This document shows, piece by piece, positions 20,648 to 51,569 of a stretch of DNA of 64,000 nucleotides. How positions within the stretch are numbered: the stretch's first letter is position 1; every line of letters begins with the position of its first letter. The position numbers were made by a program, and so were the translations under genes. Location: positions 13,905,855-13,969,854 of the forward strand of contig OZ038455.1 in the NCBI GenBank assembly GCA_964036195.1, written 5' to 3'. The notes under the pieces are model-generated. The model searched no databases, was not told where the DNA came from, and worked only from the letters and a program-made list of their open reading frames with translations. Source of the stretch: Sphaerolaimus hirsutus. Its lineage: Eukaryota > Nematoda > Chromadorea > Monhysterida > Sphaerolaimidae.

Positions 20648-23600
20648 ATGGCCGTAGACAATTTTCAGTGCCAGTATGATAAAATCATTGTCGCTCACAA
20701 GACCGGCTTTGAACTGTGTTCGCGGGCGCTCAGTGCAGATGAGAAACGTAGGACTGCCACAGGTAATGAAATGACTCATTTTTGGCACTCTTCCAACTTT
20801 TTTTAAATTACCCAATCTCCAGGCGGGGGCGGGTCCCTGCGCTCTCTGAACGAACTGATAAAATTGTACGAGTCTGCGTGCGCCGCCCTACAGACTGGCT
20901 GCGACATAGAGCTGTTAGATGAAACTGGGACGTGGGCTGAAAAATTGGAACGGGTCAGAAAAAAGCAGGAGAAAATGCGCGCTAATATGGTTGCTGTGAA
21001 GGAAAGGATTAAGGAGTTGCAGTCTGGTACGCTTTTTTCTAAGAAATATCACGAATTATAACGAAGTTTGAATTCTTAGAGTGAGCTGTAGCTGACTGGT
21101 GGAAAAGGAAAACATTTCACATATAAAGCATTTTTTACATGTATGAAGAGAAAAACGTTTTCCCACCATTTAGAATATTGCGATTTGCGAAAGAAACACA
21201 AAGATTGTCGTTTTCTCTTTCCAAGTTCACATTGATCGGGGATGGTGGGAAAAGGCATTTCCGGTATTTTTTAATTGATCACTTGACCTTTGGTAATTAA
21301 GTTCTCTGGAATAGTACGTGATATTCTTCACTATTTATGATTGATGATTCCATATTCATATTCATATCTCACTATGATTGCAGTGCACTTTTTGACCAAC
21401 TGTGCGTGTCTCATAACTTTTTGAAAGATCCACATCTTGCACAGAGCGGTCCGAATTGGATAGTGGTACCGGCAGCGGGCCGAAATCACTCCATCCGGCT
21501 GCGGCGAATCGCGGTGCGAATGCGCGCCGCAGCGCCAGCGCGCTTGAAAAACCAGATAATAAAATAATCACGTCAGTTTTGTTTTCTTTTTATGAGTGGG
21601 CTTACTTCTAATTCTGTCGTTCTTCATTGGCGCAGCGCACACTATTATTCCAGTGATATTTGGTAAACTCAGAAATCGGCTTTGAACACATTTGCGTGTA
21701 ATTTTCAAAAATTTTCAGTTTTCACAAAAGTCAATGTGCTTACACACATAGTTTTCACCGTATGGTAAACTCACATGTGTTCAAAACAGATTTAAGAGTT
21801 CCTAAATTTCGGGGGTGTACTAGTGTACGTGGCCGTATTCTTCCAATTATTGTAATTGTATGTATACTATTTCAGTCGACGCAAAGGCTCCGCACCGCCG
21901 AATGTCCCATCAAACAAACGCACAAACAACAATAAATTGCCGCACAGAAGCAAGAGCCCGGCTGTAAGAACTAACGGGAATCGCGGCGCAACCGATTTGA
22001 GTGTGAGCTGCTTTTGTATGACTTTATGTTCGACAGCAATGGCGCCACACAGACTGGATGTCAACTGAATTCATGTTAACCACATTTTAGTGAATCGTGT
22101 GTAAAAAATTCCTATATCAATGAGCGTAGTTAATTTTTAATCATGACACTTTATTTCAATTGTTTCTGTTTGCTGTGTGATGCTTTTCAACACGTTTTGT
22201 GTTTTCAGTTGACATCGAGTTGACACGAATGCTCGTTGTAAACTAGCCAAATATACACGAATATTTGTATTCAGTCGTGTAACGTTGATATCGATCACTG
22301 CAGACCAGAATTCGCCATTGCAAGTCGATCGACCCCAAAATGGGCCACCTGATCGCCGCAGGGGTATCTTGAATTTTGACCCTCCGAGTGGTTGGATAGA
22401 TAGCAAATCGCTCCTCCGGAGGGATAGATAGCTGAAAAATTTTCTGGGGGGGGGTTGGGGGGGGGTTTGGGGGGGGGTTGTGGTGGTTCGATATATAGGC
22501 TTTTTCGGGGCATAGAAGGAAGAAAAGGGAGAAAAATCGCTAAAAGTAGATGTAAAATAGCTCAAAATGGGTATACAAGAGCATATAGTACTTAAAATAG
22601 CTGAAAATAGGCAGTTATACGCATGAACCAGTGATTTTGGAGGTGAAAATCTATATATAGGTATGAAAAATAGCGATTTTGAGCGAAAATTAGGGTATAA
22701 TTTCTGAAAAATCGCTCCAGATAGGTAGATAGCTGGGCGATTTGGGGGGGGGTTTAGGGGGTAGTAGCCCAAAATTTTGCCTCCGGGATAGATAGATAGC
22801 TGAGCGGCCTCCGGGATAGATAGATAGCTGGGCGGTTTGGGGGGGGGTAACCCCCCCCCAACCCCCCCCATTCGAGACCCCTGGATCGCCGATCTAATTA
22901 TTGAAAAGGGAGCGTCGGGTGTCACTTTCGATGACATTATTGGATTGGATTCAGCCAAGCGCGCCCTGAATGAAGCAATAGTATGGCCTAGTTTGAACCC
23001 AGAGCTTTTCACTGAACTGAGGCGCCCAGTGAAGGGCATTTTGTTGTTCGGACCGCCTGGCAACGGGAAAACTATGCTGGTTGGTTGATGGCTTCCGAAG
23101 GATGACGTAGCCAGGCGTTTTGAGCGGGGGGGGGGATTATACGGGATAAGGGGGTGTGGCACCGCCTCCTAAAATTTGAGCCCTGTAGTAAATCAGTGGC
23201 TAATGAATCATTCATACGCGCCACGCTATGGCGCCATCGAGAGACCAAGGACTATTTAATTATTTATCTAAATATCTAACACACGCTCTCGATGAGTCGA
23301 CGTCGTCTTATACATCTGCACAGAATCTCAAAGTGTCGGGCCTGGTGAGAAAACAAAGCATTTGTCCTGTTACGCATTTTTGCACAAAAATGGCAACAGA
23401 AATGCTGCGCTTGGCAATTTTTCATGTAAATAAATATCACCCTGGCTGCGCCCGTGTCCGACTACAACAAAAAAAAATAGCCAGTCATCGAAGAAATATT
23501 TGTCGGTTTGGTAGTTGGTACAAATTAAGCATTTCTTGCATTCGCAGGCGAAAGCAGTCGCCTCAGAGTGTGGATCGAATTTCTTCAACATTTCCTCCTC

Positions 23601-50700: not shown

Positions 50701-51569
50701 ACAGTACGCATTTAAAACGAAGTACTATTAAGTTACTTTCAGTTACTGGTTTTGAGGCATCTTTCAGCCAGAAAAATCGTGTGTAGTCTCTAGCTTGGTC
50801 ATGCAATCCTATTTGCAAAGATGCCTTTTCAATATTGGCAATTAATGCTAGATTGCCTGCCCTGAATGTTGTCATCAATTGCATAGGGGTCATCAGTGAT
50901 TCCCACTGCTTCTAGACTGTGAAATTGTTGTAGTGTTTCCTTTCCTATGGCCACTATGGCTACTTTTTGATGATTTTTTGTTGGTTCAGTTAAGCTTGAA
51001 CTACAAGTGAAGTTACAGGCATGATCTATAGTTGCAGAATGTACAGCTACCACAATCAAAGCCAAACAGGCAAACCTGCATGCAGGTTTTCCTTCTGCAA
51101 ATTTGTCTATTACCGTGCTAATTTCACTTTATTTTTTTCCGTTTCCGTGAAAATTTTGCTTTCCGTTTTCCGTTTTCCGGCATTTCATTTTTCCGTTTTC
51201 CGTTTTCCGGCCGACAATTTTTTTTTACCTTTCCGTTTTCCGTTTTCCGCTGAGTGAAAAATTTTTACCTTTCCGTTTTCCGTTTTCCGGCAGAAATTTT
51301 TTTTTTACCTTTCCGTTTTCCGTTTTCCGTAAAGTGAAAAAATTTTACCTTTCCGTTTTCCGTTTTCCGTAAAAATTTTTTTTTGACACCCTAGTTCCAA
51401 TGAACCGCTTTCCACTGTGGCACAGCGCGCCCTTGGAACCGGATCTTTGGATGGCTGCCAATTTGTCACGCAAGGGGTCTTAATAGAGGCGGATATCTCT
51501 GTTGATTGGCTTCTCTTGAATATGGCACACCCCGATAACTTTGTCAGAGTGGCTGTCTGTACTAAATAA
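47778..51569 (+). CDS. atg5: Autophagy protein ATG5 (5 exons; last exon split by a transposon)
   Basis: ATG5 is conjugated to ATG12 and, with ATG16, drives ATG8/LC3 lipidation in autophagy. Exons: 47778-47885 (DILREIWRGKVPI start), 48264-48391 (RISYLPLV, WLDFESTPLR), 48984-49080 (HHPIGILYDSLAG, PWCLTVHF), 49299-49556 (ESHFMQSVKEADFI, MEKRDHKKLW, FVPLRFYI), and 49777-49824 continued at 51402-51569 (VDWLLLNMAHPDNFVRV, TAA at 51567). All phases agree. The Lys that accepts ATG12 is in the SVKEAD motif. In the last exon a 1,569-bp hAT element with a perfect 8-bp TSD interrupts the frame; read-through gives a stop directly at the insertion and loses the C-terminal ubiquitin-like fold. Unlike the serpin case I find no GT-AG pair that removes it in frame. 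An AATAAA overlaps the stop codon. Confidence 0.93.
49825..51393. mobile_element. TAGGGTGTCA hAT element inside the last ATG5 exon
   Basis: 1,569 bp; ends TAGGGTGTCAAATTTCCG and TTTTTGACACCCTA; perfect TSD GTTCCAAT at 49817-49824 and 51394-51401. Long arms of CCGTTTTCCG-type repeats flank a piece of BEL/Pao retrotransposon. Family copies: 9303, 17134, 37755 and probably 55520. Confidence 0.95.
50105..51065 (-). pseudogene. BEL/Pao retrotransposon pol fragment carried inside the hAT element
   Basis: Minus-strand open pieces in changing frames. 51065-50829 has HSLEAVGI (the conserved box upstream of the reverse transcriptase). 50893-50366 covers fingers and palm, with NNIYMDNFI at the catalytic box and MNMREWLSN. 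50287-50105 has AYDPIGFTAPV and a later WDE. Stops and frame breaks make it non-functional. It contains no terminal repeats, so only a coding fragment was captured. Confidence 0.8.

Follow-up and report, generated by a model that had tools for sequence, protein, structure and literature searches.

The window analysed here, a stretch of 64,000 nucleotides of contig OZ038455.1 from the nematode Sphaerolaimus hirsutus (positions 13,905,855 to 13,969,854 of the forward strand; all coordinates below are those of the window), contains five DNA transposons with terminal inverted repeats (TIRs) that interrupt coding exons of four genes, encoding spastin, ATG5, a trypsin-like serine protease (struck twice) and a serpin. 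Four of the insertions lie between clean target-site duplications (TSDs), and elsewhere in these genes the reading frames are open. Genes that are interrupted in this way, yet in which no other damage was seen, suggest an animal that cuts the elements out of its mRNAs. The most likely reading, which we hold tentatively, is removal at the RNA level, directed by the terminal repeats in a manner similar to SOS splicing, from the transcripts of genes that would still be functional. This reading is put forward because the exons are struck as if insertion were harmless, because most of the sites have no good canonical splicing solution, and because end pairing is possible for at least four of the five elements. 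The genes, the two exonic hAT-like elements and the three miniature inverted-repeat transposable elements (MITEs A, B and C) are as follows.

20648–26760, plus strand: spastin gene (AAA ATPase), hand-built gene model with 11 coding exons, the fifth interrupted
22351–22358, plus strand: first copy of the TSD GATCGCCG, in spastin exon 5
22359–22883, no strand assigned: hAT-like non-autonomous element with ends CAGGGGT..ACCCCTG and poly-G/poly-C subterminal inverted repeats
22884–22891, plus strand: second copy of the TSD GATCGCCG
27715–33336, minus strand: serpin gene, exon ends approximate, C-terminal exon matching Pfam Serpin at E 6.4e-10
30337–30502, minus strand: MITE C in the serpin, of the same family as A and B, with an imperfect TSD (CAGG / CAAGG)
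39992–47241, plus strand: trypsin-like serine protease gene with seven coding exons, a signal peptide and a C-terminal cysteine-rich extension being recognised by eye
42775–42953, plus strand: MITE A in the fifth protease exon, before the active-site Ser region, with TSD CTGG at 42771–42774 and 42954–42957
43560–43709, plus strand: MITE B in the sixth protease exon, after the protease domain, with TSD CTGG at 43556–43559 and 43710–43713
47778–51569, plus strand: ATG5 gene, hand-built gene model with five coding exons, the last interrupted
49817–49824, plus strand: first copy of the TSD GTTCCAAT, in the last ATG5 exon
49825–51393, no strand assigned: hAT-like element with ends TAGGGTGTCAAA..TTTGACACCCTA and tandem repeats at both ends
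51394–51401, plus strand: second copy of the TSD GTTCCAAT

The insertion in spastin is a 525-bp element with TIRs, flanked by TSD copies that are identical at 8/8 bases, and removal of the element together with one TSD copy yields an open spastin frame of 506 amino acids. The C-terminal 315 residues of this product match the structure 5z6q with an E value of 5e-96 (phmmer), protein searches gave 38–45% identity at 91–99% coverage to the listed spastins, and the N-terminus is presumably MIT-like. When the C-terminal 315 residues were aligned with those of 14 other spastins, the junction was ungapped, with a one-residue gap appearing approximately seven residues further on. Folding of the element as RNA pairs its two ends, with contributions from the poly-G and poly-C runs (z -2.2), and diverged relatives of it are present elsewhere in the window. 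The same gene holds another hAT element at 23696–24755, which occupies the extreme start of intron 6 and whose TSD, GTTAGATT, duplicates the splice donor.

The element in the last ATG5 exon is 1569 bp long, with 12-bp perfect TIRs and TSD copies that match at 8/8 bases. With the element retained, the frame meets a stop at its first codon; joined without the element and one TSD, the frame is open and encodes 268 amino acids, which match the structure 4gdk over residues 2–266 (E 8.5e-45, phmmer), with small gaps near the junction in this pairwise alignment. The six best ATG5 proteins (266–274 amino acids) show 35–37% identity at 99% coverage to the joined product, and in a multiple alignment with these six, one record of which is flagged as unverified, the sequence is ungapped within 13 residues of the junction. 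Since the 55 residues encoded after the element found no match at E 10 when searched alone against the PDB, this part of the exon rests on the whole-protein match and the alignment. Short TIRs starting with YAGGG and an 8-bp TSD are the hallmark of hAT transposons, and both features are found in the spastin and the ATG5 element. Within the latter, an open frame of 181 amino acids (50366–50911, minus strand) resembles, by eye, part of a BEL/Pao retrotransposon that the hAT element might have captured.

The protease, which matches plasma kallikrein with an E value of 2.2e-22 (phmmer), is interrupted at two sites, and removal of the element plus one TSD opens the frame at both. In the alignment of the joined protease with plasma kallikrein the junction at site A is ungapped; site B lies outside the protease domain, and its junction has no family alignment. 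MITEs A, B and C, which share 62–70% identity in pairwise comparison, are predicted to fold as hairpins along nearly their entire length, with arms of 59 nt in A (80% complementary; z -10.9), 75 nt in B (81% complementary; z -10.6) and 41 nt in C (80% complementary; z -5.3). At the serpin, whose phmmer matches to antichymotrypsin are weak (best E 0.0017), the frame-keeping join leaves one residue fewer than other serpins have there, as judged from this weak match, and the join also reads as a GT-AG junction (CAG|GTGCCA..CCCAAG|GCG). Because the two coincide, the serpin site may be a MITE-derived intron. The initial annotation of this stretch had described exonic transposons with readable TSDs in four genes and a protein restored by removing each element with one TSD copy. 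Both descriptions are borne out at four clean sites in three genes, namely spastin, ATG5 and the protease at both of its sites, whereas the serpin is ambiguous, having no exact TSD and a product one residue short. Upstream in the serpin gene, an exon at 32001–32126 (minus strand) encodes a six-cysteine stretch that appears ShK-like by eye.

Outside the elements no stop was seen in 1,787 coding codons (5,361 bp, including 238 bp of a gene at the window edge and the serpin with its approximate ends). A script followed the exon-to-exon frame through spastin, ATG5 and the first five exons of the protease, and the remaining protease exons were followed by eye, the serpin being left out. Across spastin, ATG5 and the protease, 20 introns were read, 19 of them GT-AG and one GC-AG, a tally that is partly circular since the intron borders were picked by eye with GT-AG in mind. 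The sole non-GT donor belongs to one of the ten spastin introns, the other nine being GT-AG, and lies in the intron at 25417–25477 (CTG|GCATGT), whose acceptor is normal. Protein searches returned no same-species transcript of spastin or ATG5, the best identities being 45% for a near-full-length spastin and 37–40% for ATG5.

The potential of the ordinary spliceosome to remove the elements was assessed by listing GT donors in a span that reaches from 30 nt upstream of the left side of each exact junction to 90 nt downstream of it, together with AG acceptors between 90 nt upstream and 30 nt downstream of the right side, and keeping in-frame, stop-free products. The scoring matrix was derived from the splice sites of these genes, 20 donors scoring 4.3 to 10.4 and 27 acceptors scoring 5.2 to 13.3, and these known sites score high partly from having trained it. 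For ATG5, zero in-frame, stop-free GT-AG solutions were obtained in this range. Spastin yielded two, with acceptors of -5.3 and -6.6, and protease B seven, with a best acceptor of -2.2; like that of the exact serpin junction (donor 5.2, acceptor -2.3), these acceptors fall below all 27 known ones. Protease A gave four solutions, the best of which has a donor (4.3) and an acceptor (7.4) inside the known range and adds the six residues TCECPW. The serpin gave 14, of which 8 were shown; in two solutions other than the exact junction, weak donors (1.8 and 0.7) are joined to an internal acceptor that scores well (7.0), and a large part of the element is retained. Exact removal with one TSD would need a GT..TG register at A and B and a GT..TA or TT..AG register at ATG5, and at spastin it has no GT-AG or GC-AG register. 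No adequate canonical solution is available at ATG5, spastin or protease B. Judged by these scores, canonical introner splicing is a plausible route at one site and a possible one at a second; at the other three it is poor or has no solution. At protease A, and perhaps at the serpin site, the normal spliceosome may be what removes the element.

On the strength of the same search, the idea that all five insertions are ordinary introns was dropped, and individual registers were rejected along with it. The canonical spastin candidate GTATCT..GAAAAG|GGA is in frame, but has a poor acceptor and deletes the residues DLIIEK, which the relatives have. Pairing the GT of the first ATG5 TSD with the TAG of the right junction loses one base and shifts the frame. 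The pair GTAAAA..TTTTACAG inside the MITE TIRs was tried as a general set of splice sites; TTTTACAG is in frame at A only, and the donors score -1.1 and -1.5.

All insertion counts come from this single window with its five exonic sites. A scan for TIRs with exact 8-bp TSDs gave 69 matches, whereas three block-shuffled controls gave 2, 2 and 1. Tandem or low-complexity repeats account for most of the 69, as registers within them; 11 clear elements were picked by eye and a twelfth separately. Two of these 12 hAT-like elements with perfect 8-bp TSDs are exonic, where 1.0 would be expected from a coding share of 8.4%. A hand count of 34 complete TIR elements includes 5 exonic ones against 2.85 expected (P = 0.16), and leaving out 16 TA-flanked pairs, which are possibly due to chance, gives 5/18 exonic against 1.5 expected (P = 0.02). 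These expectations derive from the coding share (or the CWGG share, below) rather than from simulated insertion along real target sites. Exons are not depleted of insertions and are struck at least as often as unselected DNA, and the number of insertions in them is well above the near-zero count expected if they were lethal and purged. In this latter sense the claim that five exonic insertions far exceed expectation is upheld, though no clear excess over unselected DNA is seen (2/12 and 5/34).

All four of the complete host genes found (4/4) carry an exonic element. Pfam scans, with stops read as X, covered six frames over 1–20600, 33300–39950 and 51600–64000 (approximately 62% of the window), three minus frames over 26800–33500 and one plus frame over 39950–47300, and genes outside these stretches or without a Pfam match would escape the 4/4 count. 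Besides the serpin, the scans detected a reverse transcriptase, a weakly matching trypsin and the beginning of a ligand-gated channel gene; no transposase was found in the regions covered, inside which neither of the exonic hAT-like elements fell.

All three MITEs are inserted at CWGG sites with the same end toward the 5' side of the gene, their orientation being judged from the ends because the interior is nearly palindromic. The MITE end GTGCCACTC is matched perfectly at 3 places in the window, which are the three exonic copies, and with one mismatch at another 19, which were not inspected singly; the total of 22 compares to 7.8 expected by chance. Profile searches of the window found no further complete member, and gave a partial relative at approximately 46205–46395 and weak internal matches near 19.7–20.1, 33.5 and 3.1 kb. 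With 13.7% of the CWGG sites being coding, the probability that 3/3 copies are exonic is 0.0026, or 0.019 for two copies when one is set aside as the reason for looking.

Under removal from RNA, DNA transposons would insert into coding exons of genes that stay functional, and the removal would act on the transcripts rather than on the DNA. The paired TIRs would form a hairpin that joins the two exon ends, and the transcript would be cut near the base of this hairpin and religated without ordinary splice sites. SOS splicing of DNA transposons, with AKAP17A and CAAP1 as host factors, has reportedly been described by Zhao et al. 2026 for worms and human cells; the work is said to concern Tc1 in chosen insertions, with hairpin-forming ends and independence of splice sites. 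The likeness lies in DNA transposons residing within host mRNA, from which excision and re-ligation would restore the message, and in the pairing-capable inverted ends that mark an SOS substrate, as MITEs A, B and C and the spastin element fold and the ATG5 element has its perfect TIRs. In contrast, the elements in this window are hAT-like and CTGG MITEs, are found in every complete gene, and are known from DNA alone. Excision in SOS splicing is attributed to unknown endonucleases and ligation to RTCB in the available part of one review (PMC13247085). Judged from sequence features, the SOS-splicing idea of the initial annotation is compatible with the sites described here.

Several observations weigh against removal from RNA. 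The recognisable non-coding hAT TSDs comprise 10 perfect ones and 1 with a single mismatch, and the two exonic TSDs are also perfect, so that recognisable hAT insertions are young throughout the window and decay may have lacked the time to appear. Further TIR pairs with 2 to 5 TSD mismatches are perhaps older, rearranged or due to chance, and the comparison itself favours young insertions, as it needs a recognisable TSD and listed only pairs with at most 5 mismatches. With young hAT insertions everywhere, intact exons are weaker as proof of long coexistence and a recent burst stays alive as a rival; an early argument from age, in which old elements sat in intact exons, was weakened accordingly. 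The proposal that exonic insertions are tolerated fits the lack of depletion and the open frames, while the youth of the non-coding hAT insertions leaves room for a burst that breaks genes. Spastin is altered at 11/109 positions that are invariant across its 14 relatives. In the same test 12 of the relatives alter only 0–2 such positions, and the other two alter 14/123 and 11/120, which places this spastin at the fast end of divergence; of the two readings a fast lineage is the simpler, and a partial loss of constraint would be hard to distinguish from it. The TIR of the ATG5 element is only 12 bp, and the folding predictions covered the other four elements. Moreover, that the 3/3 MITE copies found are exonic with the same end first may point to an introner-like bias and not to a removal of hairpins that is blind to orientation. 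Finally, the evidence is genomic sequence, from which we infer the expression of the genes and the processing of their transcripts, and likewise the position of the cut and the enzymes involved.

Introners, reportedly described by Huff et al. 2016, and other known systems provide further points of comparison. In the parts of the cited papers available to this comparison, introners resemble the present insertions in being non-autonomous DNA elements that lie in coding exons and have both TIRs and TSDs (Gozashti et al. 2022, PMC9860276), and the MITE family here is seemingly restricted to exons with one end first; the difference is that most of the five sites offer no acceptable in-frame GT-AG pair. 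In structure, MITEs A and B, with their CTGG repeats and long arms, come nearest to the non-canonical introner elements of Amoebophrya, in which inverted repeats of 8–20 nt join the intron ends and direct repeats of 3–5 nt lie over the boundaries (PMC7789003, as far as the excerpt goes). Repeats of this kind are present at A and B and imperfect at C, whereas spastin and ATG5 have 8-bp repeats instead; the window differs further in that the introns read are GT-AG or GC-AG and that it offers DNA sequence only. In Fritillaria borealis, a larvacean and thus also an animal, 95% of the introns break the GT/AG rule, and the divergence of its splice sites is thought to stem partly from introner transposons with weak splice sites (PMC13326754, in the portion consulted). 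A similarly relaxed spliceosome does not fit here, because the introns are 19/20 GT-AG with one GC-AG. The Caenorhabditis elegans Bergerac strain RW6999 has 190 exonic Tc1 insertions where 121 were expected from the motif, which parallels the exonic TIR transposons of this window in exceeding a motif-based expectation; raw exonic counts were below the length expectation in two strains, and N2 had zero in exons, which speaks against tolerance in exons (PMC9635669, partial text). Bergerac also differs in being a recent burst of one family in known strains, while at least two families are involved here.

The main rival to removal from RNA, which we consider unlikely but well worth keeping in view, is a recent transposon burst, in which the assembled haplotype or segment carries broken gene copies that another allele or a paralogue makes up for, or that weak selection tolerates, while the transcripts retain the elements. 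The youth of recognisable hAT insertions all over the window is what such a burst would leave; so are an exonic count equal to the unselected expectation and a spastin that has lost more invariant positions than 12/14 relatives, and Bergerac strains load their exons at a fitness cost (PMC9635669, same partial text). Set against this, 4/4 complete genes are struck, yet no stop was seen in 1,787 codons, where by our estimate the loss of selection over 0.6% neutral divergence would be expected to have left about 4 to 5 stops or frameshifts. The decayed TSD of the serpin MITE and the low identity among the three MITEs (62–70%) hint either at insertions of greater age or at a family that is itself old and diverse. 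Two of the four struck genes we take to be usually single-copy and important. Somewhat less probable is intron gain of the introner type. Here the spliceosome would excise the elements, or in any case the CWGG-targeting MITEs, with the left end supplying a GTGCCA donor and the acceptor coming from either the right end or the TSD. The restriction to exons of the 3/3 complete MITE copies found, with G|GTGCCACTC at the 5' side of the transcript (P 0.0026, or 0.019), speaks for it, as do the donor (4.3) and acceptor (7.4) at protease A and the serpin site, which is exactly GT-AG in frame. The idea, raised in the initial annotation, nevertheless fails at most sites: ATG5 has no in-frame solution in the range searched, the acceptors of protease B (-2.2), the exact serpin junction (-2.3) and spastin (-5.3 and -6.6) compare to 5.2 to 13.3 for known ones, and only protease A is good. 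Exact removal at A and B, moreover, requires the GT..TG register, and the hAT families lie mostly in non-coding DNA of the window.

Precise programmed removal of DNA, with the assembly representing germline or otherwise unprocessed DNA and somatic copies lacking the elements, is the least probable of the explanations considered. It would account for the fact that exact loss of the element plus one TSD restores 4/5 sites whatever the splice signals, and ciliates remove internal eliminated sequences with comparable precision; nothing in the sequence marks it out, however, and we know of no precise, exon-restoring DNA elimination system in animals, although no literature search was made for one. 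An artefact of assembly or haplotype merging is likewise very improbable, as four sites have exact TSDs and TIRs, which transposition leaves behind and misassembly does not.

Removal from RNA might also take a stronger form, that of a lineage in which excision is so effective that DNA transposons can treat coding exons as neutral territory, with most genes holding exon-interrupting elements that do not show in the mRNA and one MITE family acting as an exon-targeting, intron-like passenger at CTGG/CAGG sites; this extension is conceivable, though we regard it as doubtful. If removal from RNA is true, the window would provide a natural, large-scale case of transposon-tolerant exons, in which one could ask what cuts the RNA, how precisely it does so, and whether such healing lets transposons multiply in genes or become introns. 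If the genes are broken instead, the window is a record of an unusually heavy transposon load. Either way, standard gene prediction would probably split such genes or label them pseudogenes.

Among the perfect hAT TSDs, 7/12 start with GT, and an element ending in TA creates a TAG at its right junction; insertion alone thus yields a GT..TAG pair that misses an exact intron by a single base. A TA-flanked family with ends like CCGTATTTCCTCGAA is represented at 34700–36414, 5354–5760, 59104–59512 and 58565–58889, none of these copies being in the coding exons read. An Rfam search of the window returned nothing at gathering scores. Pieces of a LINE-type (long interspersed nuclear element) reverse transcriptase, recognised by Pfam RVT_1, lie at 3804–4830 on the minus strand; a protein search with the upstream piece gave 17 word-sharing candidates, none at E 0.001. 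At the far end of the window, positions 63763–64000 hold the start of a ligand-gated ion channel gene (Pfam Neur_chan_LBD), truncated by the window edge.

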